DNA of 64,000 nucleotides, taken from Hydractinia symbiolongicarpus. Taxonomy: Eukaryota; Cnidaria; Hydrozoa; Anthoathecata; Hydractiniidae. Location of the stretch: contig NC_079877.1 in NCBI RefSeq assembly GCF_029227915.1, positions 22,469,851 to 22,533,850 of the forward strand. Direction: 5' to 3'. Shown piece by piece: positions 7,735 to 53,753 of the stretch (the stretch's first letter is position 1; each line of letters starts with the position of its first letter). The notes under the pieces are model-generated. The model did no database searches. It saw nothing but the letters and a program-made list of their open reading frames with translations, and was not told where the DNA came from. Made by a program: the position numbers and the translations under genes.

Positions 7735-8420
7735 TAGTTTTCTAGTTTTGACGAATTGCTAAAGGCTAATAACGAGCATGAAAAGTCAACTTTTACACAA
7801 CTGTATGTAAGGAGTTCAAGATCAGTAGAAAGTGGAGCAAAAAGAGCTAGCAAGAAAGTTTTTAAGGAAGAGTTGAAGTATGCAGAAAAAGACTACGCTT
7901 GCATTCATGGGGGGAAAGAATTTAAATCAGCTTCTACTGGAAAGCGCAAACATAATGCGTGAGTTTTTTTATATATATTGCTATCCGTATTTTTTATTTT
8001 TCTGTGAAAAGATTACATTACTATCACTTTTTTTGCAACTTATTAATTATTACCTGGGATAACTAGATTATGTAATTTCTTTACCAGTGCACTTGCAAAT
8101 ACTTGTACCTTCTGAATTATAAATTTTAGAACTTTCAAAATGGGATGTACATACCTTATCAAAGTGAGGGTAAAAAGTTCTGGACAAAAACTGTATGTGA
8201 AGTCAACTACAGGAGAACATAATCATCCTGTAACTAAAGTAAGTCATCTTGATTGCATGCACAGAAAAAAATCTGACCGTATATCATACTTGCGGCGAGT
8301 CAAATATTCCATTTTTTCTTACAGGAATGTTTTGATGAAAACCTTTCGCTGCTGGCATCACAAATGTTAAAAGTGAAAGCCAAAAAAATTAATTCAAAAC
8401 CATATTTCCAATCTGTGTAG
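7735..8420 (+). pseudogene. MULE transposase N-terminus with FLYWCH/WRKY-GCM1-type zinc finger
   Basis: Frames joined across two phase-consistent introns are 7756-7958, 8130-8238 and 8325-8420. Exon a ends YAEKDYACIHGGKEFK...GKRKHNA. Exon b continues MGCTYLIKVRVK...GEHNHPVTK, so the pair supplies the spaced C...C...HNH ligands of the FLYWCH/WRKY-GCM1 finger found in MULE transposases and ZSWIM proteins. The start is frameshifted (the SSFDELLKANN frame has an upstream TAG). Exon c stops at TAG 8418, with VILKDLHNM, a MULE-like continuation, following in another frame. It is a broken gene. Confidence 0.6.
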
Positions 8421-9780: not shown

Positions 9781-10488
9781 CTAACATTGGGAATATCCAA
9801 GCATATTAAAAAGTGTGTTTGCCTCATTTCTGTTCCATGAATACCAAGTCTCTGTACGATACAAGCCCACAGTCTCTTTAAAATTAGGTATACTTAAAAC
9901 GAACCTCTGATTTTCAACATTATCAGTTATCATACAAATTATTGCGTAAATAAGCCACTTGTAGAGTTCCATTTGATCCTGCTGGTTCATTTTCAATGTA
10001 TCGCAGATTTCTCTTAAAAATCCTTCATTTTTTACAACTAGCTGGCATTCCCTGTTCAGACTACAAATCTGAGAAAGCGCTTTTATTATCTCTATTTTGA
10101 CTTCATAGCATTCAAACGGATAAAGCTTAATGAAATGAGTGACTTGAGTGCCAGCTTTTTTTAAAGCCTGTGGTCCACCCATCCACGAAACTATTCCGAT
10201 TCTCCGAATTGATTCGACCTTTTCCTCGGTTGTTGCTACATTTATGTGATGAAGCTTTCGTAGGGAGTACATAATGTCACGAACGTAACTGTCTTCGGCT
10301 TGAATGTTAAATAAGGCATCTTTTTCACCAGATACCAATGATAAAGAATAGTTCCGAACTTTTTCAAAACCTGTTTGCACGCTTTTTTTAAAGAAGTCCA
10401 TTTCTTCGCCGTTGTACTGTATAGCTGTTACGTTTTGTTTACAAATTTTCGAATTGCAATTTTCGAATATTCGAACACGCGAAAACAT
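9781..10488 (-). CDS. Armadillo-like helical protein, ARMH2-like, single exon (235 aa)
   Basis: An uninterrupted frame runs from ATG 10488 to TAA, with coding-like composition throughout. The protein is all-helical in character: residues about 60-90 hold EDSYVRDIMYSLRKLHHINV, followed by KVESIRRIGIVSWMGGPQAL, then repeated leucine-rich helices, and a C-terminus with ETWYSWNRNEANTLFNMLGY. The 'R-R-I-G-x-x-x-x-G-G-P' and 'W-x-x-W-x-x-N/E' patterns recall the vertebrate ARMH2 family (armadillo-like helical domain containing 2), whose function is unknown. There is no signal peptide or TM segment, so it is likely cytosolic or ciliary (inference). An alternative start is Met31 (MDFFKKS). No intron is needed. 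The family call is from memory of the pattern; a structure search would settle it. Confidence 0.6.
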   Translation of the reverse strand: MFSRVRIFENCNSKICKQNVTAIQYNGEEMDFFKKSVQTGFEKVRNYSLSLVSGEKDALFNIQAEDSYVRDIMYSLRKLHHINVATTEEKVESIRRIGIVSWMGGPQALKKAGTQVTHFIKLYPFECYEVKIEIIKALSQICSLNRECQLVVKNEGFLREICDTLKMNQQDQMELYKWLIYAIICMITDNVENQRFVLSIPNFKETVGLYRTETWYSWNRNEANTLFNMLGYSQC

Positions 10489-12599
10489 GGTTCGATTTTA
10501 TTTGTTAGTCACCAAACACGCGTGCGACAAGGAGCATGCGGATGACTTCGTACAAATAAACTTATTCTTCAAATAGTCAAAAGTCATAGTACTATTTAGC
10601 TAAAAGTATATTTATGGAAATATGTGAAGAAACAAACGCGCGTGAGTCACGCTGAAATTGAGGTAGTAAGGACAGCAACAAATCAGAAATGAGTTATCAC
10701 TTCAAGCATTTTTAAATTAGATTCTTCTTGTTTTTATTGATTTTTATCAATCTCATTAAGTTTAATAATGCAAAATGTTTCTAGAAAAAGAGAAAAAATA
10801 TTTTCCATGAAAGTAAACGTGGTCCCATTTGCATTCTCATCTAGAACAAGCGGAGAGTTAACTTGATTTCTGACCACTTTTTTTCATTTTCAGGTAAAAG
10901 GTTGTGTAACATAGGGGAAAACAGAACTATAGAAGACGAATACATGATTTGCGGGACAAAATTCTTAAAAAAGGTTTTCTGACAAGTGCTAGCTTAATAA
11001 CGACGGAAATTATGTGCTTATCCCCTAATCTTGTGGATACGGTGTCGTCATATATTGTCAATGAAAATGCATCATCTTAAAAACACAAACAGGGGGTTAT
11101 TTTATTGATCTCAAAAGGTAACGGTACTGAAAGCAACAACCCTAAGTGCCAAGCTTGAGGATTTTATATTTACTCGTGATGAATAAACTTATGTGCCCAG
11201 GAAAGGAGGGTTTATACACGAAACACTGTAATCGTGATTTTGATCATAGAAATTGTTAGTGATTTTATTGGTTACCTTTTGGATCGAAAATTTACGATAA
11301 ATAATAATCATAAAGCATTACCACAACTCAAATAATCCGAAGTGCCTTTCCAAATTTTTTGTGCCGAATTCGTTACTATTAAACTTACAATTATATTAGC
11401 TAGAGTGGACGTTTATTAACGCATCGTAACAAATGTAGTACCACCCCTGCAAAGGAGATTTAAAAAGAGAAGGAGGATGGCCTTAAATTCTATTCACATT
11501 TTTTTTTTGTTTACGCGCTTCTTTCAAACCCATCCGTTGAGCCGCTATTGCTGCATTTTTACATGCCGAGAATGAAGATTAGTGTTTTAACGACAAAGCA
11601 GAACTTTCAAAAAATATATTAATAACTATAACCGCAGATAAAGAAGCACAAGGAATTAATGCCGACGAAATTTATTTCCCTACTTACAAAACAGCTGGTG
11701 TTTGGAGTTTGTATTGTGTACAATGTTCCCCTTTGATATTGATAAGTTGCAGCGTGACGTAGTTGTTTTGATTTTGTGTCTAAAAGAATGGAGGCACAAG
11801 CATGCACATAGGCAAGAAATATAAAGAACAGACTGCAAGGATTGAAGAAATCAAGTTGAAAAGTCAACTTACTTTTTGAAATAATTAAAACCTGATCTTA
11901 AAAACAGAAAATGATAGTTAAAAAAAACAATTTTAGCTTCTTTTAGATCGTTTATTCCTTTAATCTATAAATTGAAGAAAATAGTCAATTTTCTCTACAT
12001 GATCCTTCTTTTATTGCCTGTAAAGATGCGCGCATATACGAAACTTTGTATACATTCGCAACTCATCTATGGATATGATAAAACTTTAAAAATATTACTG
12101 CAGGAGGGGTTGCATATTGGTATAATTTTTTTCATTAAATTTTTTTGTTACATAACAGTAATGCCACAAGCCAATCAAAAGATGGCAGTGGAGCTAGCAC
12201 ATGTGAGACATTCAGAAGTAAACAATACTAAAGATTTTTATTACGTACGCAGTTACTCCTTTTTGAACTGAAAGATTCAGTTGAGAAGAAAATCGGCCAG
12301 TGTTTATCATGTCAAGTAACAACCAAACAAAAGAAACAGCAAATCATTACACATCGTTCCTACATTAAGGGAAGAAATATTGCGAAAGATTAAAGATTGC
12401 AAATTTAGCCAAAAGTTGTGTTTAAAGTTATCAATTTTCAAAGAACATATTCTGTTTGCTTTTGTTTATGTTTTAGAAACAATTCATTGAGGAAGATGTT
12501 GTAACGTTACATTAATGATAAAGAGTAACGTCTACGATGGAGCCCCGAAATAGAACGCTCATTAGCTGAAGAGAGTTAGTTGTTGTAAATCTATGCAAC
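10489..12599. other. Non-coding stretch
   Basis: No open frame here has a recognisable family or splice structure. The frames at 11619-11867 (minus) and 11972-12271 (plus, no ATG start) look like chance openings in AT-rich DNA. Confidence 0.3.
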
Positions 12600-19478: not shown

Positions 19479-22400
19479 ATGATTATCCAATGGTGGTTCT
19501 TTATTCTGTGCATGCGCAGTGTTTGTAAGTTGATTAACTTTATGTGAAATGAGATGAAATGAAAATGTGATATGCAATTTATATCACCATTGTATGTCAT
19601 TTAATAATTTTTTTATTTTGCACAAAATTGTTAGTCATGCTATTATGTATTCTAACCTAATTTTTTGATATTATTAGCTAATTTCATTGTCATGTTATTT
19701 AAGTTTGATATAATTGTAATTTTTGTATACATTTTTACCGTAGATCCTTTATCACAGAGCATTAATCTTGCAAATATAACTAAAGAAATTACCATCACTG
19801 CTGTACATGGTGAGGAGTTAAAGCTGTCGATATTAATGCCACTACACTCACAACGGCTTCTTGTTTACAAATTGCGTAGACCTATTGTTATCTTCACCAA
19901 GAGCCAATTAAAGTTTTTAGATAAAAAGTCGTTTGAAAATGGTTTAACAACTTTTTCTGAGTCAGAAAGTAACGTAATCAAACATGGTTTATGGGCTCCA
20001 AAATTATCCTTGAATGATCAGCAAAGATTGACAATAGTTGCTGTAAATAATACAATGCCAGATGACTGGATAAGAAACATCACATTGAATATTAAAGTTT
20101 ATGGTAAGTCATGACAATCTCCTGGCACATTTAACGTAAGTTTTCCAAATGTGTGTGTTTCATTACAAAAATAATTTTACCTACAGCCATAAACAAAGTG
20201 TCAGCATTTAGAAGTTTCAACTATATATCTGCTTTTGCGTACTGCAGATAAAGTTGTAGCTCACATAAAGCATTTCTTTTGTCTGTAGCATTCTCAAAAA
20301 CTGTCTTCTGAGAGTGCCATCTATCCTTCTTTACTCGCTCTCTTACCTTGGAGCACCTCCTGGATTCTTTAACATTGAGGTAAATGGTAAGGAAACTGAT
20401 CTGGTATGTTAATTTAAAATTTCTCCCAACTGAAAACTACTACAGAGTTCCTAAAAACAATGCTACCGATAAAATAATTATCCCACAAAAATCTTTTGTT
20501 ATTTTTGCTTCTTACCAACAATATCTTTTTTATTTTCCGTTTGTTTGTTTTTTTCTAAAACTAAATATAGTGGTACCGAGTCCCTTTAAAACCTGCTTCT
20601 TATGAAAAAAAGGAATTTAGCATATATTTGTATTAGGTGGACCATTTGTTTGCAACATAGAAAGAAAAATAGTTATAAGAACAAATCCATTAAGAGTAAA
20701 AGATATCATCTGCTCCAACCCCAAACCGATGGTTACTTGGTATGTTGATAACAACTTAATATCAGGTGGAGATGTGCTGAAAAAACAACTAACAAAATAC
20801 TCTGTTCGAAAAATATTTACCACACAAGATGTGAGACTTTGTGGCAAACGTATCAGCTACGTTGCAACAGGGAGGAATGGAATATCATTGAATAGGTCGA
20901 CATTACTTGTGTTTCCATGTAAGTGGATATTTATCGTACATTTTAATTTGATGATATCGAGCATATATTGACGTGCAATTTCTTTTTTTCTTTTCTTTTC
21001 AATGACGACTTAATACTAAAACAAGCGTTTGTCTTCTTGGCAGGAATTGCTCCCATCTTTAGTTAAAAAAATCACATATGTAATCCTTGTGAAATACAGA
21101 TTAACCGATTTAATCATACATATTTAAGCAAAACTGAGGCAATTGCAATTGCACATATCTTTTTTCGTGGATGAATTGAATGTTAAACTTTGGTGACTGT
21201 TCCTACCTTTTATAACAGATTCTGGCAAAAAAATAACTTGGGTGGAAAAAATCTAATTTCCTGTAATTTCCCGCCATTTTTTAGCAAAAGTCTGGGTTTT
21301 TAAAAATTCTTTTTTAAGTCAATATAAAACAGTTTTGTTGCGTTGTTTTGTTTCTAAAATAGTTTTTTATATGTTGATGAATGTTTTTGTGTTACCACAA
21401 ATACAACATGGATACCACAAGGTGTATATAATGCAGAACAGAATTTTTGAATTATCAAGACCAGATATTTTTATTTAACAGAACATTTTATGACGTCATT
21501 TCTGATCTCTATAACGTTATCAAATTATTTTGGACCTGGAATGAGTTTGTAAAAGACATTTTACAAACTGTCCCAAGATTCATCACTTAAGCAAAAGTGG
21601 TTCGGGATTTATATACCGCGGGCATTTTGTGCCCCCCCCCCGCCCCCGGGTTACTAGGACCAAAAAATGCGCAGGTACAATAGGTTTGATAGTACTACCG
21701 CCATAACGACACTTCCTGTAAAGCGTCAAAAGCGTTTTCTTTGAAAAATGTCTACCATAGTAATATTTCAAAAAAGTTGCAAGAAAACTCAAGAGATATT
21801 TGCATTATTCTGAAACAAGTAAAATAATTTTTTGCTGTTCTAGGCCATTTCAAAAAGTCTTTCCGTCTTTGTTGTCCATTGTTATTGCGTTAATCTCAAT
21901 TTATGTTTTTGTAGTCAAGCCAGACCAAGTTCAAATACTGTCATCAGTGGTAAAAGGAAGATGTGTTAAAACAAATTGGAAATTACTAAATACTGGAAAA
22001 TGTAATGTGACATATTACATTGAGTACAAAGTTAATGGTGAAAATAAAGCAATTCACCATGCCAGCGTTGAAGGTGAAAACAGTTATAAATATTGCATGG
22101 AGAATATAGTCGACGTGAAACACACTGGTACTGTTTATATGAGAGCAGCATTTGGAGATATTAAAGGACTGTGGAATAACCTGCGCATGAGTTATGAAAC
22201 GCGTAAGTACGTTGTTCCTTATATCAACGGAATAAGTTTTTTTGGTTAAAATATATGAATCTTCTTGCTTTATAAACATTGCAGCTTGAGTTTTTTCCCA
22301 TCATCAAAAGTACGACACACAAGGTACACAAAGACGGTCTACTTTCTGAGTAAATTCATTGCATATAACGAACAACATTCTACTTATATCTATGTTTTAT

Positions 22401-23798
22401 AGTCAAACCAATGCTACCTTAATTCATCAGCTTTTCGCGCAGAACCGCTGTGCAAACAATAGTAATTTAATGTGAAATATTTAGTGTGCGCGAAATAATT
22501 CTTTTTAAAAGGTGCTTGAAAATTAGATTGCACGTAATCGAATAAAAAACGGTAAATGCAATATCTAGTTGACGTAAATCCAAGATCTAGGAAACTTTGA
22601 ATGACCAAAAAAAAACCCATTTATGCAAAAAAAAGTTAATATTTTAGACAATACATTGATATCCCTATTTAGTTTCTGTTTTCTATAATACCCGTGAGGT
22701 TCAATGAAAATTAAATGCGCCAAAAAGATGCGCGAAATTTAAATACGAGAAAAGAGACGCGCGAAAATTTCGTGAAATAAGTTACACAACACACTTGACT
22801 ATAGACAAACATTTTTGTTAACTCTTCTCTAAATCACGAAAAAAAACAAAGGTATGTGCTATCTGAAGAGCAGACTTTTTTAGCTACATTACTCAATCAT
22901 CGAAGTATATTATTTTACCATGAAAAGTTTTAAAATTTAGGTTTATCCATATTAACCTCCCATCTCCCTTAAAAAAATTAAAATTGAGAACTTCACTAAA
23001 CTAATTAAGTTGTTGCTGTATCCAGTAAAAAACAAAACGAGATTTTTCACGACATTTCTATACTATATTTTAGCAAGTTTTCGGAGGCTCAAGTCCACCG
23101 TGATCTATATGTACTAACGCCTACAATAAAATACATTTGTAAACTAGGACAATTCTAAAGGCATGGATTAAGCAGTTTTATTTAGTAAAAGTTTATCACG
23201 GCTAACTTACAAAATCTCCCTCAACGTGAATCAATCACGAGCTAAAACTGCAAAATCGACAAAGAAAGGCAGACAAAGAGATTATCCAGTGCAAATACAA
23301 ACAATATGCTTAAACCATTCTTTCTTTAGCTCTCAATATTGGTCAGCAATCCAATATACTTCGTCCTACACCAGTATCGATCGCAGTTGCAGTTGTTGTG
23401 ATGTTGATACTCTTTCTTATCATGTGTCTTGTGTCATACTGCATACTGAGAAAAAAAGGTACGACTCTACTTATCAGTTTAATGCATGAGTGTGTAAATT
23501 AAATCTGGCTTGCCGTAATAATGTAGAGGAGCCTTTAAATTGCTCTTTAAAACAAAGGCCTTCCGAGCAGTAATCATTTTTGTTAGTGGCTAAGGTGTCA
23601 ATTAAACGTTTTATGATAACAAGATGTATTATTGTCATAGGCTATCAAGCGCGTAGAATGACGAACGTACCTGAACTTGTTATAAAGGAAGATAAAAACA
23701 TTTTTCAAGCAGAGGATTTGAAAAGTAGTGGTGGGGAGAAGCAAAAAATGTTGCAAATTATGGAATCATTTCAGATGAGAAGAAAAAATAAAATATAA
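19479..23798 (+). CDS. Alr-like immunoglobulin-superfamily transmembrane receptor, six exons, 420 aa
   Basis: CDS exons are 19479-19524, 19744-20103, 20637-20918, 21915-22202, 23330-23458 and 23641-23798. All five introns are phase 1 with GT-AG borders, and the joined frame is open. Residues 1-15 form a hydrophobic signal peptide (MIIQWWFFILCM). Residues 16-135 are a V-like domain with no cysteine, including KLSLNDQQRLTIVAV. Residues 136-229 are an I-set-like domain with VTWYV and SYVATGRNG, the usual F-strand Cys being Ala. Residues 230-325 are an Fn3-like domain. Residues 326-368 hold a TM helix (VSIAVAVVVMLILFLIMC). The tail of about 52 residues is short and charged, with one Tyr. One-domain-per-exon phase-1 structure plus missing Ig cysteines matches the Hydractinia Alr allorecognition family, where Alr1 and Alr2 are homophilic self-recognition surface proteins. 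Assignment to Alr is inference; IgSF membrane receptor is firmer. An AATAAA lies near 23880. Confidence 0.75.
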
Positions 23799-24921: not shown

Positions 24922-27103
24922 TTCTGGGACTACCTTTTCCTAAAAATCAACATTTTCACACTGCCAGTGACATTGTTAAACTTTTAGAAAAGAAAACAAC
25001 GAATATGTTTATAAGAAAACAACAATTGGAAGTAATTAATCTTATTAAGGAAATGAAACAATATGACAAAAAATATTCTAAAAAACAACAAAAAGATTCG
25101 AGAATGTCATCTGTAAAGAAGAGGTCAGATGTAACTCACAGCAGAAAACAGTTTCTAAGTATTACTAACTTCATTCATACTGTACTCAGCGCTCAACACG
25201 GTCATGAGTATGTTCATCTATATGGTTATTTTGGTTAAAGTTCTTTCGTTCACAGAAGGTACCTTTTAGCTTTCTTTAATGTTGTTTTGTAAGACATTCA
25301 TATAACGTGCTATTATTTTTCTTGCAGGACACACTGCTAACGTGACATATAAAGTCGAAGAAGCGTCAATATTCATCAATGTTAGAAACGTTTCGCACCA
25401 TGATCAGCTCGTTTTTCTGGATAAGTATAACCATTCGTTGGCTAGTGTAGGGTTGATCAAAAATATGACGATGTTATCTATGAAGTTTGGATCTATTGCA
25501 GATGTTCGGCGAATTAAAAGTATTAAAATTCTATCAAAACAAATTGAAAGAAGAGAAAACCAATCAAAGCAATCTCTAGGTAAAGTTTAGTGCATTAATA
25601 TTAATGCCTTTTTTAGGCTTTTGAAATCTCCCTTGTAGATCTATTACTACTTTTGACACTTTCTTGTGTTTTTTTTAATTCCATTTTTGTTTTTACTTAG
25701 GATATATCCATGTAGTTTTTGTCACAACAAGAACGCTTCTTGCTTACCTACACAGAGATGTTTTTACACTCAGCTAACTCAAACTTTTCTATTTTAGGCA
25801 AAATAACAATATTGCTATTGACATGGTCAATCTTAAGTACGTTAGTCATCATAATCCTCATCTCAGTATTGATAAGAAAGAAAATCACACGACTGACGGG
25901 AGGTACGCACATGATTTTTGACGTGTGAAATTTGTTTGTTCATTATATTGAAGAACGTTTAACACATATAGATAAAGTACTTGGCCAATTGAAATTCTTA
26001 CAAAGTGTTTAGTCGCATTGGAAGAGAAAAATAATTTGCAAAGAGATGGACACTTTTTTAAACTTTTTTGACCATTTTCTCAACCAGCCTTTTATAACTT
26101 TAACTTTCTGCTTTGAAAGGGACAACTAATAATATTAAATAGAGTAAAAAGATAGAAAAAAAAAGTTCATTTACTCGTTTTAAGTAAGTCTGTGTGTCAC
26201 CACGGTCACAGGGGAATAAATGGCATGCGTCTCAACGATTTGAGACCACCATTATCCGCACATTCGTCAGACTTTATGTCATAATCTTTGGAGAAACTTT
26301 GATCTGATGACACTTTCCTTGTGATGACATTTTCCTTATATGTTATGTGTAATGACAACTATTGATATTGTATAAATCAAGGAAGGAAGGTTATCTTCGT
26401 CAACAGAAAATTCTTTTTATACAAGATTTTTTTATTGTTTGTTCAGTATGACAAGAATGTGGGTCACAGGAAATAAATACTTTTTAGTTTCTTTCTCATT
26501 TTTTATTTATTTGTATATTTATGTTTCATTTTTATATTTTTTTATCTTATATTTCTTTTTCTTTTTTTTCTTACTATTTTATCTTCAGATTGCATTAAAG
26601 AGAGATTTGTGGCTTCAAAAGAGACAGTTACTATGAAAGACAGTTCCTCCATCTTGACAGAGCAAAATAATAAAATTAAGAATCCTAATTCTGACACAAT
26701 TCCAGCAGCAACATCGTCAACAAACAAGGAGTACATCCGACCTAATCAGGAAGTTAATGGGCTGCCACCACTTATATTTGAGAATAATATACAAGAAACA
26801 TCAGAGGAAGATCATTTTTACGATATTCCGAAATTCTCAAACTTGATCGAACAAAATGAGGAGGAATATTACAAAGCACCAAAATCACTACTCGAAACTT
26901 GCGAAGTAAACTCTGAAACCTTTCAAACTAAAATTGACAAATGTAAAGGAAGAACTAACTCGGATGTAGCGTATGCTAATATTGGTCAAAAATTACAAGC
27001 CTACTGCAAAAGAAACGGGCTGTCGAAAAATAGGCTGTCTAAGCGCTTTCAAAAGAAAGCATCTTCAAGGAAGTTGGTCATTACAGAGGAAGAAAAGTTT
27101 TAA
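24922..27103 (+). CDS. Membrane receptor 3' half with ITIM tail (second Alr-type cassette); 5' exons uncertain
   Basis: Well-supported exons are 25328-25579 (84 aa, four N-glycosylation sequons NVT, NVS, NHS, NMT), 25798-25902 (TM: LLLTWSILSTLVIIILISVL, then RKK stop-transfer) and 26589-27103 (170-aa tail, TAA). A less certain upstream exon, 24922-25233, is helical and Lys/Glu-rich. Every junction is phase 1, as in the gene at 19479-23798. The tail carries YIRP (26732), YDIP (26819) and YKAP (26870), all YxxP of the Crk/Nck SH2-binding type, and VAYANI (26966-26983), a perfect ITIM consensus. No signal peptide or Ig exon of its own is seen between 23.8 and 24.9 kb. It is therefore either a truncated neighbour or an alternative 3' end spliced to the upstream Ig exons. 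ITIM-bearing tails have been reported in the Alr family. Function is inferred. Confidence 0.6.
26966..26983 (+). other. ITIM motif VAYANI in the cytoplasmic tail
   Basis: Codons GTA GCG TAT GCT AAT ATT give V-A-Y-A-N-I, matching [S/I/V/L]xYxx[I/V/L]. Phosphorylated ITIMs recruit SH2 phosphatases (SHP type). It lies on the cytoplasmic side of the predicted TM segment at 25798-25902. Confidence 0.7.
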
Positions 27104-29819: not shown

Positions 29820-32800
29820 TTACCACAGTTTGCACTTTCTGAAGGGATTCATCCTACTACCAAGTGGACAATTAAATGCTTTCGCAAATTCTGCTGTGTT
29901 CTGTATTGTTTCACGCACTCTATAATTTTAAAATTTAACTTCATTGTCCAGTGCTGAGAAATAACGCAAGCTGTTGATCTCAACAATTATTTTATGCTCA
30001 AAATGAAATGAAACATTTTTTCCTTTCAAAAATAAATAAATAATAATTAACAACATCCATATAACATGATGACTCCAAATGCGGACCTGGTGTACAAAAC
30101 TCACTGTTCTATCTATCTATGAGCGCATGCGAAATTTTTATCGCTGACGACCCATTCTACTTTGATTCTTCTACTTTTCTAATGTTTACAAGTCAGCTTC
30201 AAACTATTTGTGTAACAAAAGGCGAAAAGAACTTGATTGGACATTTTTCACAGCTCATCGTATAGTTGCATTATCGTACGTAGAGTATATACCTGTTTTA
30301 TAAAAACTACTAATCTGTAATGTTTACCTTTCCATGTTTGGACTGTGCACATCAGTTTTAAGTTGGCTTTGAAGTGCTTTATCTGTTTTAGCTGAGCAGA
30401 AAAACTAAAGAGAGAAATCTTCAGGTCAATATTTGTGAAGCTCTCACAATATCTGCACATAGTAGACATAAAACTAGTCACTAAATGCTATTACCGACCA
30501 TTCTAATATTTCGCAGTTATTGCAAATAACTTTTGATCAAATGAGTTTTGTGGCGTGGTCTAAGTGTTTCAAGTGTTATGTAACTCTCAAAGTTTACCTG
30601 TGCAAATGAAAGAAAAAACAATTGGTCATTGGATTCTGCAACTCCTTGTAGCAATGGTTGTTTCCCATTTTCTTTCTCCCAATCCTTAAAAGCCTAGAAG
30701 CAACAAAAAAAGTTAATGGTCAGCATCAGCATCGGTTATACTGCAATGATGACGCTTGCCGCTGTGAATAAATTAGAATTATAGATTTACCTAGATCAAA
30801 TACTCTAAGCACAATTCTATATAATTATTCTGCTTCGTGTATGTGTTTTTGTGAATCTACTTCTCGCCAAAAAAAAGTTCGTCAAATACTTTTGATGGAC
30901 AGGATGTATCCTTTCAAGTTTTACGGGCACAGTTGTGAGGACAACTACAGATCCCGTACATCCATAAAATACTTACTCTATAAGCGATTGTGATACCTCC
31001 ATTATCAGCAATATTCTCTCCAAGTGTTTTTTGTCCATTTATCTAAAATGATAATCAGCGCGAACAATTGAATCATAAGACAGTTTTACTGCTTCAGTAA
31101 AAGTGTTTAGCAGTTTTGTACTTACATAATCACCTGCTACTTCTACAGCAGAATATTGATTAATGAAACATTTACTTCTGTCGACAAAATTTAAAATAGA
31201 AGACAACGTCCACCATGAATTGTCTTTATCACGAAGGTTACCATACTTATCAAATAAGCGTCCTATAGTTATTAGTAAAAACATCAGTATATGGCAATGA
31301 TTTTCATCACCTGTGCCCCTAGACATTGCATATGTTGCATTTGAAACAGTTTATACCCGCTTCCACGAAAGAATGACCTATGCTGTTGTCTAATTAGGTG
31401 GTGCGCACACGATGTTTTAAAAGGCAGTTTTAAATGCATCATTACCTCTTTCACTGGATTCTCACTAATGCCACTACTTGTGGAAGTTAGAGAGGTTATC
31501 CTATACAAACAAACATTGGTTATGACAATAATCTAATATACACAACACAAATCGAAAAATTACTTTAACACTTGAAGAACAGCTCGACTCTTTTTTCAGT
31601 CAGAATCTCGAAAAGTGAGCAGCGATTGGTGGCTGAGAAAAAGACCTAAACGGTTTGTGTTTGGTACTGCTAAGTAGATCAATTTATCCACTTTCTAAAA
31701 CATGTGTTTCACTTGTCACGACAACCTAGTCCACAGGAGTTATGGCTGTCCAACTATTGGGCTATTTTTGCACAGCTTTTCCCGGGACTCGCTCTTTAAG
31801 GGTTAGTTTTTTTTTAAATTAGGTATAAAAATATTGGCGCATTCTAACCTTTATTATCAAAGCCATGCGTCATCTCATGTCCAATAACAGACCCTATGCA
31901 ACCATAATTTACTGCTTTCGGGTAGTCTGTCTCAAAATATGGTGGTTGAAGAATAGCAGCAGGAAATGCTGAAGAAAATCAATTACTGATGCATTAGAAA
32001 GGAAATGAAACAGGTAATTTGGATTGCTCCTAAAATGTTCAATTTTATTCCTAAACATTAATTTTCTTGCATTTAATTATAACTGTTATTTGTATTCAAT
32101 TTTTATAGTATTATCCTACCTATATGGTTACTCTGTGGGCTGTAGTATGCATTGATGGTTGCTGGAGTTTGAAGCCAGGTATTTTGATCAACTTTTTCTC
32201 CAAGCTTTTTTAACGTTCTCATGGCTTCATATCGATTCAAGTATAAAATATTGTCGAAATAACTAGAACCATTAACCATCATCTGCAGTATAAAAACAAC
32301 CATTTTAGCAAATATATATCAAATATATAACTCACATCGATACGATGAAACCAAATAAGGAAAATGATTATTTCATCAAAAACATTCTAAGTTTATCACT
32401 GATCACAATTATATTCGCGGAGTATTAATTATAGATAAAAATAATAAAGACTAACATTGGAAATCTGGATTATAAATACTAGATCAACTAATAATTGTAA
32501 ACTTGTTTATTGCTCCCAATGGTAATACTTTGTTTATCAGAAGCTGCATTATTATATACAAGATAAATCTTATTTTGAATAGGTTTTGACGAACTGCAAG
32601 TATACTCACCCCAGTGTATTTTTCATCTAATTTTTTAGGATTCAAAATATACGGAGGATAACCGATTTGTTGAACAATTGCGTCAATTTTCTCACTAGCA
32701 GCTTCTCTTGTTGTACTGTCAAGCCAGGTAAGTGATGGTAGAATCTCTTTAAAGGCTTTTCGTAGATCACCAACCATTTTGTTCGCCTGAATGAATTCGT

Positions 32801-35800
32801 TATGTATACTTTTCAGACTGCGACGAGTAAATAAATTCTCTTTTATCAGATTAACTTCCTAAGATACCAGCTTTTTTATCGATGCCTTATTCTTTTTGTG
32901 TGTTTTTTAACAAAAGAAAGGTTTCGTGTCTCTCTTGTGGAAAAAGCATCTTTAAGTATTTCACTTTATCCGCTCCCCCGTCCTAAAATCTGAATTTTCT
33001 TTACAATACGCTTGGTTGAAAAATTGAATTTAAGTCTTTCTAATTACGAGTTAAAAATATCACCGCTACAACCCTAATTTGAATTTTAACATTTCAGTGA
33101 AAAGTTTAAAACTGTAACTATCTGCTCACCTCTATGTGACTTTTCTCAGAAAATGCTTTCTTAACGAACGCAGCTCCAAGTGCTAATCCAAGATGCTTAT
33201 CTGTCACTGATATGCATGTTTGCCATTGAGGGGGAGGGGTTTCAGGACCTCTAATCGATGCTATCAGCTTGGTAAACAACTGGACAATGGTATCGGGTAA
33301 AGCATCCAAGTAATGCATCACAACTTTTATCAGCATATAATTATGGATTGTGCTAAAAATAAAGATAATCTTAATATGGCTATATATTTCACTATTTTTG
33401 TTGTTTTTATTTTTGTAAATAGCATAGAAAATAAAATAGCAAATGCCTTTTATCACATCACATGTCTAATATCACTTACTTGTAGGAAGTGGTCGACAAT
33501 AAGAAGTCTAATTGATCGAAGTAATTTTTATTTGTTATAAGAACTTTCTCATCTAATTTAATCTTCTTATCAACGTCATTAAAAGCAGATTTTAAGAAGT
33601 CACTAAAAAAAATCTAAAGAAAAAAGATGGAAATACTCAAGCTAGAGTGTGTGCAGTTTAGCTCCTAAATTTATGTAGTAATCTTGAATAAAATTAGTTT
33701 GGGTTCATTTTCTGCTCTAGCGCAAAAACTTGAACAAACAAAAAATGGCAGACAAAAATTACAAATATTGAATATGGAAAAATTGAATAGTCCGTTTGGT
33801 GGAGAGACATTGGAGACTCAATTGTAGATCAACTGCATTATCGTAAAATCATGATCAAACCCTTTAAGGTGACTCCATAACAACCCCATTTAAAGAGAAC
33901 TACTGTCACACTTCTCCTTAAAAGACTTCCATCGCCATTCAAACGAATTGTCACGTCACGAAAAAGATAGATGGACCTGAGTACTTTAAAAATTAAAATT
34001 AATAGCATGAGGCAAGCCAGAGCAAACATACCGTAATGCTTCGATTAAACACCCCCTTTTTTAGACGCTCCTCCCCTTAATTAAACTCCCCCTTTTAATT
34101 AATTTTTTTCAATAAACGTCCGCTTGTAATAGTCGTTCCCTCATTAATCGATATTTAGGATGATGTTAATATTATGTGAAAAATATGTGTTCCATCGGCA
34201 AAAAGAAAAAGAAAAAAAATCGAAAACTTAAATAATCGCCCCGGGTGTTTATTTAAAGCATTGCGGTAAATTACTTTCATGATATCAGCACTCTGTCGTG
34301 TTTAAAACATGTCTTTGATAAAAAAAAAAACAAATAACAGAATGAATGAATGAATGAATGAGTGTTCAATTTCTTTTTTTTTTAATTATTTAGCAGCATA
34401 AAAAAACGATTCGTATAACGAAAGTTCAGTGCTGACTTGTCGAAATAGAAAAACTAAAAAACGTTTTTTGCATAAAAAACAAAGCAAACGACCAACTAGA
34501 AAAAGTTACTTAAATTCTGAAGTCATTTTACTAAAAAATTTTTCTTAACAACTTTCTTAATTTTGACCCAACGAAAAGACTTTAATCTCTTTTTCGCCCT
34601 TTATACATCATCTAAAATGATGTCTGTTCTGTTGAAATCGTCGATTTTTAAGTAGTCTTCCGATTTGTCAGGATTCATTTAATTTTTTTTTATACCAGGC
34701 AAAAATATCTGAATGCCATTTCAATGCCATTGATTGATGGGAAGCATTTGTTTCTTACACAAAAATTTTACAGTTTTTAAATTTATTTTTAATGTTTGAA
34801 AAAGGTGTATTAAACGTGATTGTTTTTACAATAAGTTAAATTATCATTTTTTAAAACACATCTATTACCATTATATGTCACCATAATACTTAGTTTAAAC
34901 AATTCATCTTTAAACCTAAAAAGTTAGATATATATAAAAGACGACTTTCCCAGACCTCTTACGCAAATCGACAGGAAAAATAATGCAGGGGGTAAGTCGT
35001 GGACCAGTCCAGTCCAAACTTTATTTTCAGTTACAGGCATCTTTTGATCTTGAATTTAGAATATAGCTTTCATGTAATTTAGATCATTTATCAGTCTGCA
35101 TTTTCTATTTTTTCCGCGCATGCGCAAGAATGCCGTAAAAACGTAAACATTGAAAGTCATCTATTAATTCTGACCATGTATCAGCGCCACGCGGTTGTAA
35201 AATTATACAGAATAATGATGCATTTACTAAAAGCTAAGACCTTCCGATAGCACTTTTTTTCCCTGAAATTTCCAGAAAGGTCTGTTGAATCATACAGCTA
35301 TGAACGTGTGCAGGAAATAATAACCTCTTTTCAAACGAAGGGGGTATTAAAAACAATAAAAAAAACAGATTGTTTTGTTTTTCAGCGGCACACTCATACC
35401 TACTAAAATAACAACAAAACTATCCAATCTACTTACGTTCATCCAGGATATTTGAAGATTGTAAACTGGGTATACATTGTATGAATTTGATGTTTTGCTG
35501 GATATTAGTATCTAAAGAAAAAACAGAAAAATGAACTCACATAAAAATAATGCCCCCCCCCCCCCTTGCTTTAACGATTGTTGCTTGTAAGGAATAAAAG
35601 ATAAGGATTTTCTTGAATGATTTTCGTATTTACCTTGTTAAGACTTCTTTCAAAATCGAAAAGATCAGAAGCGATGCTATTGCTGTCCCAGACAGTCAAT
35701 CCGTCAGAAAATGCCGATACCAGTTGTAGCATAAAGCGTTCATACATGTTTTGAAATCCATATCGCTTGTTTTCGAAATCCTCTTTTTCAAAAAATGCAC

Positions 35801-37159
35801 TTCCTGGATGTCCAAACTTAAAGTAGATATTTAGATAATTATTCTTTACAAATATGATTTTGCGAATGACATAGCCATTCAACCCTATTTGGCATGGGAG
35901 GAGGGTATAAAGATTGCGCAAAAAAAGCAAATTTTAATATCCTCTGGAATATTTGCCTAATTGTTACTCTCAAAACCTCGCGAGTTTTAATATTTTCATT
36001 TTAATATTTTCATGAGTTCAAAACCACCAAAGTAAACTTTCTAAAACTACCTCGATAGGTTGTTTTAACAAAACTATCAAGGTAGATGTGTTTGAAACTT
36101 TAGGTGTGAATGGTAAAAACCGAGTTTTATTGAAAACCAGCTTTATTAGGTGCGAATAGGATATAAGCTTACCTCCCTAATATAATTACGCAAAATTATA
36201 ACATCATCAAATACTTGCTATTAATAAGTATGCAAATATATGAATTCGTGTAAACCATTTGAAACGCCAAACTGAAAAGCTAGACACATATCTAACCCCA
36301 CATGTCTTAGAAAAGTGTTAAGTAAACGCCACACTCACAGCTACTTAATGATGTCATGTATGAGCATAGCAATCCCACTTTAGAGGAACTTTAGAGTCCA
36401 AATTAAAACTTCTAAACAATGTTCTAAAGCCTCGAATGCGAATTCAACTTGCTTTTTAAATAGGGAGATAAACTTTAATTGAGTTGGAAACTATGTCAAA
36501 ATTAGACCTACTTTTATAATGTTATTGGTCGAATGTTTTAGATCAGGACCAACAGTAAACTCGAACAATGGAGAAACGCTTGCTTCTTTAAAAACCTTTT
36601 GCATTAACGCGTTTGTTCTTGATGCATCAGAGACGTCAAACGTAACTTTTTTAAAGCCACCCAACTTTTTTATTAGGTTTGCCATTGGTGTTGTGCCCAA
36701 TTTATTTTTTCCTTTTACATCCATGCAACTCTCAAATAATCGAAACATATTTTTCTTTGCCTCGCTGTCTAATGTTGCATTTTCCTTGTTCTCTAAAATC
36801 GATTTCTCGATTTTGAAGAGTCTTTCTTGAAGTTGTGAAATGGTTGAAATTTCTGATTTTCCATTTGGGATTGGATTTTTTGACAACCATCCACCACATG
36901 CGTATTGGTAGAAGTCATCACATGGATTTACAGATTTATCAAGAGCTGATAGGAAGTGCCATCTCACTTCACATAGTGTGTTGTTGCAGTGGTGATCCGG
37001 TGCCACCTTCTTCTCAGTGTTCTCATTTTTCTTTGTGCCGTAAAGAAGAACTAGCACCGACACACCTGCTATCAAGAGAAGTATGAGGAAACCAAACACG
37101 GCCCTAATGATATAGGCCCGTGCTTTCCGTGATTGGCTAAACTTCACGTAAGATACCAT
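29820..37159 (-). CDS. M13 zinc metallopeptidase (neprilysin / endothelin-converting-enzyme type), 13 exons, 732 aa
   Basis: Minus-strand exons are 37159-36512, 35816-35634, 35511-35437, 33613-33480, 33352-33130, 32786-32610, 32282-32120, 31968-31849, 31262-31126, 31042-30977, 30693-30598, 30404-30328 and 29919-29820. Phases agree throughout and the sum is 733 codons. It is a type II membrane protein: a cytosolic tail of about 15 residues, TM at about 17-40 ([18 protein letters not shown]), then the M13 ectodomain. Visible motifs are [12 protein letters not shown] near the start, NAYY (524-527), the zinc site HEMTH (H565, E566, H569), third ligand E629 in [13 protein letters not shown], and a C-terminal CKLW. 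Spacings match neprilysin closely (NAYY to HExxH, 41 residues). It should cleave small peptides at the cell surface, in a cnidarian plausibly neuropeptides (inference). The largest intron (35436-33614) carries a mariner-type MITE. Confidence 0.93.
34031..34266. mobile_element. Mariner-type MITE in an M13-gene intron
   Basis: The inverted ends CCGTAATGCTTCGATTAAAC and (reverse of the right end) CCGCAATGCTTTAAATAAAC are flanked by TA at 34029-34030 and 34267-34268, as for Tc1/mariner insertion. It is 236 bp, non-coding. Confidence 0.65.
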
Positions 37160-38659
37160 CTTGAAATTAATTCTTGGGATTTTACTAAAAATATTTTTTG
37201 GTAAGCTTAATGGATTTTGAGACGGTTATTGTAACTCAGCGATATAGTAACTGTCCATAGAATGGGACGTTATTTAGGAAATAAATTGGGGGGGGGGGGG
37301 TGAGAAAGATCGGCGGATTTAGCAGACAAGACAAAAAATTAAATTCCAACAAATATTTTTTTTGTTTGTTTTTCGTCAATTTAAATTCCGTCAATCCCGT
37401 CAACTTTATGTCGCGCAACAATTTCTTCTCTCAAGGTACGCAAGAAAATACCGTAATTACTCTAATTTAACGTGTTGGAAAAAAATAATTATTTGAGGGA
37501 GTCGCGTAAAAAAGAAGAGAAAATAAATTACCTTAAAAATGTCAATTTGAGATCGCGTTAATAATTTTCACTAAAATTTTCACTAAAACTCGCGCTATAT
37601 TAGAGTAAAAAAAAACAACGAAAATAATTTTGATAAATTTATTTTTTATTTTTATTTTATTTTTTCTTTAAACTTTTCTTCTACTTTTCGTACATTATAA
37701 TCTCCACCTTTGTCTTTTCTTCCATTTTTTTTTAAAGTTCTGTATTAGCTGAAGTGAATTGGAATCTGTTATCTCCATACTACCTTGCTCTAGGTCAAAT
37801 GAATAACGCCTGTCCCCCGTAACGTTTAATTTTAAAGAACAACCATATTTTGAAAAGAAAAAAAGATTAAACATGGTTATTATCACGACAACCAATCACG
37901 AAAAAGTTAGGAGCGGGAAATTTTTTACAAATAGAGCATAAAAAACGCCCAGAAAATAATTGACGAACATGATTGGGTCGATGATGAATATCCATTTAAG
38001 TATTTATAAAATTACTATTTTGAAACAATATTTTTTTTGGTTAGCTACAGGTGTAAAGAGAAGTTTTACGAAAATTAAAGAAAAGAGTGATTATTTTTCG
38101 TGAAATAACGTAATAATTAGAGAAATGTTCAACCCTGTCACGTTAAATTAGATGAAAAAGAAAAAGAAATACATAAAAATACATAAAAGTTATTAATAAT
38201 TAGAGGAAATAAATGCGTTCATTTTCGACAAAAACGTCTAAACACGTTGATTAAAAGACATGTTAAGTTAGAGTAGTATTGTTTTAGTGTGCCTCGACCA
38301 AAACTGCAAAGAGGTCTTGACACGAACATACCTCATGCGCTGCACATAACATTGAAATCATATCAATTAGTTGACATTTGTCAATATTTGATTCTGTTGG
38401 TAACCTTTGCTAAATATGTAAGAATACAATGAATTCTGTTAAGCTATGGTTTCTTATATATCTTCACAACTTACATTTTTGCACTGCATTATTATATGTG
38501 AGGATGAAATAAACAATTGTTTCAGTATAAATCTCTCTTTTTCACAAAATATAAAGTTAAAAATTGAGACAAGAAAAAATATGCAGCAGCCACTACAAAT
38601 ATGGAAACTGTATCAGATAAAAACCAGACCAGAACAAAAAAACTACAGAAGATTATTAA
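37160..38659. other. Upstream region of the M13 gene, no gene seen
   Basis: Presumed promoter side of the M13 peptidase. It contains a poly-G run (37289-37300) and AT-rich DNA. The short frames at 37695-37895 (minus) and 38446-38700 (plus) have no supporting signature. Confidence 0.3.
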
Positions 38660-42211: not shown

Positions 42212-44349
42212 TTCAATACAGATGCGTAATGCTATCCTCAAAACAGTGCTCGACTATAACATTAAATCACAGGAGCCATATAACAAGGGTAATAAAGTAA
42301 ACTGAGCTTTTACAGTACTCAGAGTTTCATGTATTCACTATACAATCCTCAGCTGTAAAATAAATTCAACTGATCTAAATTCCTATAAGTATAACAAAAT
42401 TAATTGAGGCTGTAAAACGTGCAATAAAATCAGTAATTTACAATAAAAAAAGTGTCAAAATGTCATTATCAGTCTTTTGACTTATAATTGGCCAATAGAT
42501 ATTTGTTCATGTGGCGGCATTTTGAAACGATCTCCGACCTTTTGTTTAAAAGTTCGTCTTTATTTTCGTAACTAAGGATTTCCAATTTCTCTTGCAGACA
42601 AAGTGGACACGATTTGCTTTTGTTCGAATAACTTCTCACACGTTTTACGATCGACCAGTTTAACTCCGGCGTGATATTTTGGTCCTTTAACTGCCAGATG
42701 TAAGTGGACAGCGTGGTACTGTTCATGTACTTTTTATTGTTGAAAGATAATTTGTGCCCACCGTAGCGTTCTTTGAACTCTTTCTCAGTTAACCCGATGT
42801 AGGCCTTTTTTGGTTGGTTTTGAGCGGTGACTTCGCATTTGTAGATGACAGACTGAACTCTGCAATTTCCTTGTAGAGGGCACGTTCTTTTAACTCTGCA
42901 ATTGCATGTTGGTGTATCGATTATTTGTTTTGAAGAAACTTTTTTATTATGTGAATTAATGATGGACTTGACGTTTTCTGTACAACTGTAGCTGACTTTA
43001 ACGTTATTCTTATTGAAAACTTTTTGAAGGTTGTTTTCTTTTGTAAAGTGCTTCTTAATTAGTTTCAGAAAGGATCTCCCGACGTCGTTAACAACATTTT
43101 TATTGAAGGGTGGGTTAAACCATATCACGTTTCGTTTCCTATTTCTGCCTATCCGATTGGGTTCCTTTTTATTGAAGGACAAGTTCAGGTTTTTGTATCC
43201 GCTTTTTCGGAGGGCTTCTTCGTATTCCGGTTTGGCTTGGTCAAAAACTTGTTCGTTTGACGAATTTTTGACAAGCCTATCGTTGATTGATATTGGTAGT
43301 TGTTTCAAAATATTTTTTGGATGGTTAGATAAAATGTGGACGTATTGGAGCTGATCGTTTGGCTTTTTGTAGGGTTTGAAAGTTTCTGAATCTAAATCAA
43401 GTGTAATGTCGAGGAAGTCTACTCTTTTTAGGGTAGTTTGAATCTCGATGTCGAATCCGATCGTTTTGAAGGTTTCGATTATTTTTTTACGTTTGGTGTC
43501 TGTTGATCTACCTCTTGAGTTTCTTAATACTAATAATCCGTCATCACGGTATAAGCCGATGTCGTCTTTTCTCACGATTGAAGAGAGCTTTTGCAGAATA
43601 AGAATGCCAACTAACTCACAAATTTCGGCGTTAAAGTCAGCTACAGTTGTACAGAAAACGTCAAGTCCATCATTAATTCACATAATAAAAAAGTTTCTTC
43701 AAAACAAATAATCGATACACCAACATGCAATTGCAGAGTTAAAAGAACGTGCCCTCTACAAGGAAATTGCAGAGTTCAGTCTGTCATCTACAAATGCGAA
43801 GTCACCGCTCAAAACCAACCAAAAAAGGCCTACATCGGGTTAACTGAGAAAGAGTTCAAAGAACGCTACGGTGGGCACAAATTATCTTTCAACAATAAAA
43901 AGTACATGAACAGTACCACGCTGTCCACTTACATCTGGCAGTTAAAGGACCAAAATATCACGCCGGAGTTAAACTGGTCGATCGTAAAACGTGTGAGAAG
44001 TTATTCGAACAAAAGCAAATCGTGTCCACTTTGTCTGCAAGAGAAATTGGAAATCCTTAGTTACGAAAATAAAGACGAACTTTTAAACAAAAGGTCAGAG
44101 ATCGTTTCAAAATGCCGCCACATGAACAAATATCTATTGGCCAATTATAAGTCAAAAGACTGATAATGACATTTTGACACTTTTTTTATTGTAAATTACT
44201 GATTTTATTGCACGTTTTACAGCCTCAATTAATTTTGTTATACTTATAGGAATTTAGATCAGTTGAATTTATTTTACAGCTGAGGATTGTATAGTGAATA
44301 CATGAAACTCTGAGTACTGTAAAAGCTCAGTTTACTTTATTACCCTTGT
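42212..44349 (-). mobile_element. Penelope-like retroelement, 5'-truncated with an inverted 3'-end arm
   Basis: The element body (42212-43628, minus sense) encodes an RT palm with YRDD and a GIY-YIG endonuclease. Its last part (42278-43003) is repeated in opposite orientation at 43629-44353; the 85 C-terminal residues encoded by the two arms are identical. The whole is flanked by the 13-bp direct repeat TATAGAAATTATA at 42199-42211 and 44350-44362. Inverted terminal copies are a known arrangement of Penelope elements. The arm identity indicates a recent insertion. It lies between the M13 gene and the antistasin gene. Confidence 0.85.
42469..43628 (-). pseudogene. Penelope-like RT/GIY-YIG polyprotein, truncated at its N-terminus
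   Basis: An open minus-strand frame begins in RT motifs (FNAEICELVGILIL, then YRDD at about 43550) and continues VDFLDITLDL. It then has the Penelope connector (YKKPNDQLQYVHILSNHP), a Cys cluster (CNCRVKRTCPLQGNC), the GIY-YIG module (KAYIGLTEKEFKERYGGHK), a CPLC motif and the C-terminal CRHMNKYLLANY. The N-terminal RT fingers are missing because the inverted arm replaces them. Without them it cannot be autonomous. Confidence 0.85.
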
Positions 44350-48132: not shown

Positions 48133-48893
48133 CTTTTATTTTCAAATTTTTATTTCAACATACTAATTGAGAACATAACTTTTTTATGAGAAGCGCAACT
48201 GTTCATTTCGAAATCATAAATATTTGAGTTCGTAAATTGTCATTTGAAGTTCATAAGACGTAAAGAATCATCTCGAAATCGTAATAATATTGGGAAATTA
48301 TTTTCTAAAAATTGTATTAAGCTTTATATTCGCTTGATATTTTCCTAAAATTGCAAAAATGAAATTTCGTTTTTGCTACTTTTTAGTTTTTATTTTAAAT
48401 GACGTAATTAGGTCAGAAAAAACATGAAAGAAGTTATGAAACGAACCATGCCATGCACTCTTTTTAAACACAGTAAAATATCAAAATCAGCAAAAAAGGT
48501 TCTCACATTCAAAAGATTTTCTAGCGCAGCCCCAAGCACGGTGTGATTTTCTTAGTCAATATATAGGCCCTCCATTGTCTCCATTTTAAAATTATGTGAC
48601 AAAAGAAATTTTTCACAAACTTGTCTCAACTTGTATCTGTTATATACTCAGCTTTTCTATCTTTAAAAAAGGAGGTGTGATGAGAGACTAATGTATTTGC
48701 TCTTATTTCAAATCCATTAGAAATCTTTGAGTGTAATATTTGTATAACTTATTTGCACAAAACATAAGTGCTCGAGTGAGAAAAATATCATACACGAGCA
48801 AATGAAACCTTTAAATAAACATTTTATGCAAAATATAGATTAAAGATCAAGTTATTGCGTTTCAAATTAGTTCCTTAAAGAAATAATTTAACT
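48133..48893. other. Upstream region of the plus-strand GPCR
   Basis: AT-rich and non-coding. It presumably holds the promoter or 5' UTR of the GPCR at 48894. No specific site is recognised. Confidence 0.3.
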
Positions 48894-49820
48894 ATGGATT
48901 GTAAAACACCCCTGTATGACTTACCATCAAATGTTTGGAAATATGCATTCGGAGTTTTGTTTGGAGTGATTTCTGTTTTTGGAACGGTGGAAAATTTCTT
49001 GGTGTTATTTACATTGTACAAATTTAAACCCTTGCATCGAATGTCAAATAGAATTTTGTCTTCTTTAGCCACATCTGATTTCCTGGCTTCATCCATTCTT
49101 GCACCAGTGTTTGTGGCACAGCTTTTAAAAGAAGAACTATCAACACACTGTAGACTGGAGATGCTTCGGCGTTTTTTGTCAACATTTTTTATAGGTGCAT
49201 CCGTGTTCACACTTGGATTGATAAGCTACGATAGATACTTACATCTGACAAAGTTACAAGACTACAACATGACTATTCGGAAAAGTAACATTTTTATTTT
49301 CTTCTGTTGGTTCATACCTTTTTTAATACCTTTTTTAAAGGTAGTAGGTGAGACAGAAAGTTTATATTATGCAGCTGTCATCATCTTGCTTGTCATCTCT
49401 CTTACTGTTATGAGCGGTTGTTATATTTTGATCATATGGGCGCTGCATAAACATGGTAAACTACAGACTGATAAAATAATGACCAAAAAATCAAAAGGAA
49501 GACGGTTACGAGCTGGCAGAACTGTTGTAATTATTTTAAGTTGTTTCATGTTGATGGTTTTACCTGTCAATGTCCACTTGATGACATCTATCTTGGATAA
49601 AAACAAACCAAGAAGTGAAGTGGCAGTGGGATATATCATTCAAATGGCTTTGTGTTTGTTGAATAGCGTTGTTAATCCTATTATATACTACTTTAGAACG
49701 CCAAACTTGAAGTTGTGTTTAAAGAAGTTAGTTGGAATAGCACCGCGTGATAACACTTGGGAAGAAGGAAGCCAAATACATTATAAATCTACAAAAATTC
49801 GAGCAACAACAGAATTATAA
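48894..49820 (+). CDS. Class A (rhodopsin-like) G-protein-coupled receptor, intronless, 308 aa
   Basis: An uninterrupted frame with seven hydrophobic segments. TM1 has GTVENFLVLFTLY (E-N in place of G-N), TM2 LATSDFLASSILAP, and the TM3 end SYDRYLHL (intact DRY). A basic third intracellular loop (KKSKGRRLRAGR) precedes TM6 with VLPVNVHLM, and TM7 has NSVVNPIIYYFR (NPxxY). An extracellular Cys at the top of TM3 (STHCRLEM) is present; the usual ECL2 partner is not obvious. The N-terminus is short, suggesting a small ligand or peptide; the ligand is unknown. Intronless class A receptors in expanded families are common in cnidarians. AATAAATAAT near 49897 is a likely polyadenylation signal. Confidence 0.88.
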   Translation: MDCKTPLYDLPSNVWKYAFGVLFGVISVFGTVENFLVLFTLYKFKPLHRMSNRILSSLATSDFLASSILAPVFVAQLLKEELSTHCRLEMLRRFLSTFFIGASVFTLGLISYDRYLHLTKLQDYNMTIRKSNIFIFFCWFIPFLIPFLKVVGETESLYYAAVIILLVISLTVMSGCYILIIWALHKHGKLQTDKIMTKKSKGRRLRAGRTVVIILSCFMLMVLPVNVHLMTSILDKNKPRSEVAVGYIIQMALCLLNSVVNPIIYYFRTPNLKLCLKKLVGIAPRDNTWEEGSQIHYKSTKIRATTEL

Positions 49821-52883: not shown

Positions 52884-53753
52884 TTACGTTGAAAATGGTC
52901 TGTTTATTACCTTCCTTACATTCTTTGAACGAAATCCGTAAATAAACGTATCTAGCACAGCGTTAAATACGATCAAAAAATAACACCATGGATCGATAAA
53001 CGTTTCAGTGAAAGCTGTATCACCCACCGTGCCAGAATAAAAATGATTTACACCCGTTGGCAAGTAACAGAAAAGATAAGCTATCAAGGTAAGTCTGACA
53101 ATTCTTGTTGCTTTCTTGTTGCGACAGTTTGACACAGTTTGATGACTCCGAAGGTACATTTCTATCTTCACTTGACAAAAGATCATCAGAGCTAACACAG
53201 CGACTCCATAAAAAGCTGCAGAAAGTTTATAAGCTTCATACAACTTATCATAACCATAGTTTGCTATCATTGCGAATGAGATACATACAATCCATATGGA
53301 AACTAGGATACGACACATTCTGTTTTTTCTGATCCTGGCAGCATGATTTAAAGGTTGGTGTACAGCTAGGTATATTTCTGCAGTTATGCAAGCAATCGCT
53401 GAAATGGATGTTGTAGCAAATATATGAGATGACACTGATCTTAGTTGCAGTACATTGCAATTCAATGTTGCATTGTAATACCCTGGCAGAAGCACTGCAT
53501 TGATCGGAAGAAATGTTAAGCCGAGAAGTAAATCTGAAACCGATAAAAGTACATACAGGTTGTTTACTGAGCGTCGGATTGACTTGTTTATCTTAGTAGC
53601 CACGATAAACAACATGTTGACAATAATAACAACAACTACACATGCTATTGTGATCGCAGTGGCAACAACGAGATGAATTCTTGCTTGCGATGACGTAAGA
53701 ATCTTATTTTGCCTAATTGGACATTGGATCACTTTCGTAGCATTATCCGCCAT
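52884..53753 (-). CDS. Class A GPCR with altered DRY and NPxxY motifs, intronless, 289 aa
   Basis: One open frame with seven hydrophobic helices: TM1 (CVVVVIIVNMLFIVA), TM2 (LYVLLSVSDLLLGLTFLP), and TM3 ending CITAEIYLAVHQP, where the DRY triplet reads EIY. TM6 is YLFCYLPTGV and TM7 is FNAVLDTFIYGFRSKNVRK, where NPxxY is replaced by DTFIY. The N-terminal NAT is a glycosylation sequon. Overall shape and the basic helix 8 place it in class A, but both microswitch motifs are changed, so coupling may be constitutive, biased or absent (inference). The ligand is unknown. It is not a close copy of the GPCR at 48894. Confidence 0.82.
   Translation of the reverse strand: MADNATKVIQCPIRQNKILTSSQARIHLVVATAITIACVVVVIIVNMLFIVATKINKSIRRSVNNLYVLLSVSDLLLGLTFLPINAVLLPGYYNATLNCNVLQLRSVSSHIFATTSISAIACITAEIYLAVHQPLNHAARIRKNRMCRILVSIWIVCISFAMIANYGYDKLYEAYKLSAAFYGVAVLALMIFCQVKIEMYLRSHQTVSNCRNKKATRIVRLTLIAYLFCYLPTGVNHFYSGTVGDTAFTETFIDPWCYFLIVFNAVLDTFIYGFRSKNVRKVINRPFST

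Follow-up and report, generated by a model that had tools for sequence, protein, structure and literature searches.

Gene content of the window

The window, by which we mean the whole 64,000-nucleotide stretch analyzed here (bases 22,469,851 to 22,533,850 of contig C3), contains a predicted, complete-looking cell-surface receptor gene. Downstream of it lies a further set of candidate exons in the same orientation, and the remainder of the window holds peptidase exons, two receptor genes of another type, and three further coding-like features (Table 1).

Table 1. Features of the window, with positions counted from its first nucleotide
Feature	Position	Strand	Description
Exon 1	19479..19524	+	Start and hydrophobic leader, 15 aa; open frame, GT donor, phase 1
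Exon 2	19744..20103	+	Domain 1 (D1), marginally V-like; phase 1-1
Exon 3	20637..20918	+	Domain 2 (D2), I-set-like by family
Exon 4	21915..22202	+	Domain 3 (D3), membrane proximal, cysteine containing
Exon 5	23330..23458	+	Transmembrane segment and stop-transfer residues
Exon 6	23641..23798	+	Cytoplasmic tail of 52 residues, stop codon
Downstream exon	25328..25579	+	84 aa, 5 sequons, phase 1-1, weak donor GTAAAG
Downstream transmembrane exon	25798..25902	+	Phase 1-1, hydropathy 2.62
Downstream terminal exon	26589..27103	+	Tail of 171 residues with ITIM-like VAYANI, phase 1
ZSWIM3 N-terminal-like frame	7738..7962	+	E 5.9e-7
ARMH2-like exon	9781..10497	-	Armadillo type, E 1.4e-11
M13 peptidase exons	31042..37225	-	Neprilysin type; two exons pass the Pfam cut-off and a third falls short of it
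Reverse-transcriptase-like and GIY-YIG-like frame	42469..44163		Judged by eye, no Pfam match; end of the frame repeated inverted at 43615..44163
GPCR gene	48879..49820	+	Single exon, rhodopsin type, E 8.4e-33
GPCR gene	52884..53795	-	Single exon, rhodopsin type, E 4.8e-14

When spliced in silico, the six exons of the receptor gene join without a frame error into a reading frame of 420 amino acids and a stop codon, giving a coding sequence of 1,263 nt. All of the introns are of the GT-AG type, and every junction is in phase 1. The leader encoded by exon 1, judged by eye, is a weak putative signal peptide. The start of exon 2 is less certain, with an in-frame acceptor giving 19678 as an alternative.

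As a chance control, we counted exons that are open, in phase 1-1, 270 to 480 bp long, and bounded by good splice sites in 40 single strands of 64 kb each, simulated with an order-3 Markov model. The simulated strands contained a mean of 0.05 such exons, and three within 3 kb occurred in none of the 40. On the real forward strand there are four, three of which are exons 2 to 4 (within about 2.5 kb) and one of which falls inside a GPCR gene; the real reverse strand has two. Exons 3 and 4 are additionally backed by homology to independent loci, and identical domain-per-exon joints are found in RefSeq models of paralogues, such as P0001, P0003, and P0009. The in silico splicing, the GT-AG check, and the chance control together confirm the gene model as the first-pass annotation had drawn it, with six exons, an unbroken frame, and phase 1 throughout. 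The membrane segment and short tail described there are likewise present, the segment encoded by exon 5 reaching a hydropathy of 3.24 over 19 residues.

A pattern scan detected no ITIM- or ITAM-like motif in the tail encoded by exon 6; the gene's sole match, VSYCIL, falls within the membrane-spanning stretch that exon 5 encodes.

Family membership and chromosomal position

Searches of the species' own genome covered a 480.9-Mb assembly of 76 contigs, in which C3 accounts for 37,015,953 bases, or 7.7%. A query with the whole protein returned 19 rows, five of them the window gene itself, and a query with D2 of a paralogue returned 16, including one for the query locus and one for the window gene. 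All 35 rows lie on C3. Besides the window gene, they represent at least 19 distinct loci, found at 3.68 and 9.74 Mb, between 11.84 and 12.32 Mb (eight loci), and at 16.61, 22.18, 22.20, 22.22, 23.20, 23.21, 23.46, 26.82, and 27.63 Mb. Some of these loci may not be intact; that at 11.98 Mb has a stop within its match. Neither query returned family rows off C3, and neither picked up the homologues that have been reported from chromosomes 5 and 6 (PMC11876637).

From the order of the contigs and the presence of the family, we infer that C3 is chromosome 3, the chromosome to which the allorecognition complex (ARC), with its 40 Alr or Alr-like genes, has been assigned (PMC11876637). The window gene lies on this chromosome, and the family rows at 11.84 to 12.32 Mb form a dense cluster. 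The gene is 10 Mb from that cluster, 0.27 to 0.31 Mb from a group of three loci at 22.18 to 22.22 Mb, and 0.7 Mb from the two loci at 23.20 to 23.21 Mb, a position that bears out the earlier suggestion of an outlying member. The RefSeq LOC number was rejected as a guide to position, LOC130636837 (P0007) being out of order. The genes at 9.74 and 3.68 Mb (L010 and L011), which lie 6 Mb from each other and in opposite orientation, are nearly identical; either one was duplicated recently or the assembly has produced the second copy.

We took the paralogues to be ARC genes by their chromosome, domains, and tails rather than by name. The cluster loci L014 and L016 to L020, as well as the RefSeq models P0001 and P0003, have ITIM/ITAM-like tails with motifs such as SHYTGL and YANL or YADL, and motifs of this kind have been reported in candidate Hydractinia allorecognition genes (PMC12065747). 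Such a tail was treated as a feature of several Alr members and was not demanded of every one.

General searches with the window protein gave little. Neither the whole protein nor D2 alone had a Pfam Ig-family match above the cut-off, none of 2,807 candidates in a protein database search passed E 1e-3, and phmmer against the PDB returned nothing below E 0.2; an Ig chain of MUC18 at E 0.23 in the last search was not used.

Comparison within the family was more informative for the two membrane-side domains. D2 of the window gene carries the pattern GPxxC...CxNPKPxxTW...CG. It was recovered at E 7.7e-13 by a hidden Markov model built without the window gene and run on a small set, the reading frames of the family loci, and as a single sequence in phmmer it finds L009, the locus at 26.82 Mb, at E 4.8e-11. 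The family D2 profile (seven sequences, including that of the window) matches chains of titin, Robo, SYG-2, and Dscam. Its best E value, 2.1e-11, belongs to a titin chain of four domains, none of which taken singly does better than 0.6; the single-domain titin M5 is matched at E 1e-3. Weak Pfam I-set matches occur in five of the seven D2 members, the window D2 not being among the five. We consider the window D2 to be I-set-like, as had been proposed, by its homology to paralogue D2 domains whose profile matches I-set chains.

D3 of the window gene was recovered in the same way by a model built without it (E 7.9e-15, again among the small set of reading frames of family loci), and as a single phmmer query it finds L010 at E 3.3e-8. 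Across 10 family sequences, the cysteines of this domain are invariant and its tryptophan nearly so. The fold is harder to name. None of six D3 members matches Pfam fn3, a six-sequence profile found no match in the PDB, and the only PDB match of a 10-member profile is a chain of a sortilin-related receptor at E 0.99, which we take to be an Fn3 domain. The window D3 itself has a sub-threshold Pfam match to Ig_CFAP65_8th (E 0.0088), and a single-sequence AlphaFold model reached a pLDDT of 51 with no usable fold. For the Fn3-like label that the first-pass annotation gave the third domain, one PDB match at a high E value speaks weakly, and the smaller alignment and Pfam fn3 do not.

Trees were built from 22 D2 and 17 D3 rows. 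L015 was left out as broken, as were L029, a duplicate of L028, and L036, a duplicate of L025. The D2 tree makes L009 the nearest relative of the window gene (support of 0.863). The D3 tree leaves the window gene unplaced (0.367), and L009, which has a homologous D3, is not paired with it there; L009 also differs in that no D1 exon was found.

Judged by domains 2 and 3 and the chromosome, rather than by the sequences of Alr1 or Alr2, the window gene very probably belongs to the Alr family. The proposed Alr-type family and setting are supported by the ARC chromosome, the homology of D2 and D3 to the C3 family, the V-set-like and I-set-like domains of that family's members, and the ITIM/ITAM-like tails of the cluster. 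Alr1 and Alr2 are single-pass proteins of an IgSF family (PMC11067881). The window gene resembles the H. symbiolongicarpus Alr family in chromosome, exon-per-domain layout, predicted single membrane pass, and the order of a putative V-like, an I-set-like, and a membrane-proximal domain, and its D2 and D3 are homologous to those of the 11.84- to 12.32-Mb cluster. It differs in its divergent, single-copy D1, its short, motif-free tail, and its distance from the cluster. Podocoryna americana is reported to have a homologous family, of whose ALR genes 22 sit together in a single complex on the syntenic chromosome and several others lie beyond that complex (PMC13119343).

LOC130636304 (P0013, locus L012 at 23.21 Mb), 0.7 Mb away, has the same domain order and exon joints and is 28% identical to the window gene over 62% of the D1-D3 stretch. 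Unlike the window gene, it has Pfam-detectable V-set and I-set domains (I-set above the cut-off, V-set sub-threshold) and, judged by eye, a hydrophobic C terminus without a cytoplasmic tail; its product is possibly lipid anchored.

The membrane-distal domain

D1 of the window gene has three N-glycosylation sequons and no cysteines, and it is present as a single copy in the genome. Against a family D1 profile it scores 6.6 bits, a score equaled by 3 of 2,000 shuffled sequences, and against a second such profile 4.9 bits (24 of 2,000 shuffles as high); a five-member profile gave no signal, with 90 of 200 shuffles scoring as high. Compared pairwise with seven paralogue domains, it rises clear of the shuffled background for just two, those of L023 (3 of 500 shuffles as high) and L027 (8 of 500). 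An iterated family profile that finds 14 loci did not recover it at E 0.01, and its single-sequence AlphaFold model (pLDDT of 34) shows no usable fold. We discarded, as unproven, an alignment made by eye with the final strands of paralogue D1.

The corresponding domains of the paralogues are easier to classify. A family D1 profile built without the window gene matches antibody light chains, TCR alpha, and VSIG4, with a best E value of 0.001 and a best single domain at 0.047; among the 60 listed of 1,825 matches, nearly all are V domains, many of them near-copies. With the window gene included, a six-member profile reaches a best E value of 0.016. Pfam V-set matches were obtained for three of eight family D1 members (best, 1.7e-4), all below the cut-off. 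The first domain of the family is V-like; in the window gene itself, for which the first-pass annotation had claimed a V-like first domain, the resemblance is marginal, and we consider a V fold likely. The gene shows that a distal domain can drift far while the membrane-side domains remain recognizable.

A protein from a Logan contig (P0014) is homologous to exon 2, with 79 of 89 residues identical and 10 different. Beyond the exon it runs on into the intron, where by eye it differs more from the window. We count P0014 as a homologue, which may be of another species, rather than as polymorphism.

Possible functions of the receptor

Few invertebrate histocompatibility systems are known at the level of genes, and the allorecognition complex of Hydractinia is among them. 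Mapping has pointed to a third allorecognition determinant beyond Alr1 and Alr2 (PMC6724248). Our preferred reading, which we hold to be fairly likely, is that the window gene encodes a single-pass surface receptor and is a divergent chromosome 3 member of the Hydractinia Alr family, placed well away from the dense cluster. In such a protein, the cysteine-stabilized membrane-proximal domain would most likely carry the I-set-like second domain and, outermost, a V-like one, and this distal domain would bind a surface protein on a neighboring cell, whether the same protein or another Alr. Because the tail is short and has neither an ITIM nor an ITAM, we propose a role as a ligand or adhesion partner; the protein would probably act in this way, or signal via another chain, and not signal alone. 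It probably serves in recognition or adhesion at the cell surface, and it may have a part in allorecognition.

A related reading, to which we give a little less than an even chance, keeps the Alr ancestry and drops the part in allorecognition: the gene would encode a conserved, nonpolymorphic adhesion or housekeeping receptor. Its outlying position, short motif-free tail, and single-copy D1 are consistent with this, as is the structure of its nearest D2 relative, L009, in which a leader-like exon stands directly before D2 and the 4.6 kb upstream yielded no D1 exon. The allorecognition system has itself been suggested to derive from cell adhesion molecules (PMC10463417). The 10 differences between the window D1 and P0014, however, would fit polymorphism, unless they separate two species.

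It is unlikely that the gene is a relic, intact looking yet unexpressed, comparable to the 44 Alr-like gene models that have been judged pseudogenes (PMC11067881). No RefSeq protein of the window gene was returned among candidates of 231 to 735 aa and of 170 to 542 aa, although RefSeq paralogues sit in the searched database, and the gene seems to be unannotated in RefSeq. This absence is weak evidence, because L009, L010, L027, and L031, included in the second of these queries, were not returned either. Against decay stand a frame that stays open through all six exons, their good splice sites, and the homologous Logan contig, which keeps the reading frame across the 89 residues compared. Protein BLAST is the method described in PMC11876637, and an intact gene apparently absent from RefSeq could escape a catalogue made in that way.

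The downstream exons allow a different 3′ end. They start 1.5 kb past the stop codon of the window gene and about 3 kb downstream of D3, are all in phase 1 and phase compatible, and include a tail with an ITIM-like motif; they may be an alternative 3′ part of the window gene or a separate gene. We think it rather improbable that the main product arises from domains 1 to 3 by splicing to the 84-residue exon, the downstream membrane exon, and the terminal exon with its ITIM-like motif; one gene would then make a tail-poor and an inhibitory form. A scan of 23.8 to 25.3 kb for phase-1 first exons with good donors gave as the sole candidate for a start of their own an exon of 11 residues at 24493, the 171-residue tail is a single copy in the genome, and ITIM-like tails occur in the family; but the 84-residue exon matches none of three family profiles and has a weak donor, and with exon 6 the gene already has a full 3′ end. 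We regard as quite improbable the fuller version, one outlying Alr gene with a unique distal domain and two alternative ends, one a short silent tail and the other ITIM bearing. Were it true, two proteins sharing one specificity, an inhibitory receptor and a silent form for display, could come from the same locus.

Finally, it is very improbable that this is an IgSF-like gene unrelated to Alr and similar by convergence: the window D1 is without convincing similarity and the family is linked to Alr1 and Alr2 by chromosome, domains, and tails and not by their sequences, yet D2 and D3 are homologous to family domains with common cysteines and tryptophan, the same exon joints, and the same chromosome.
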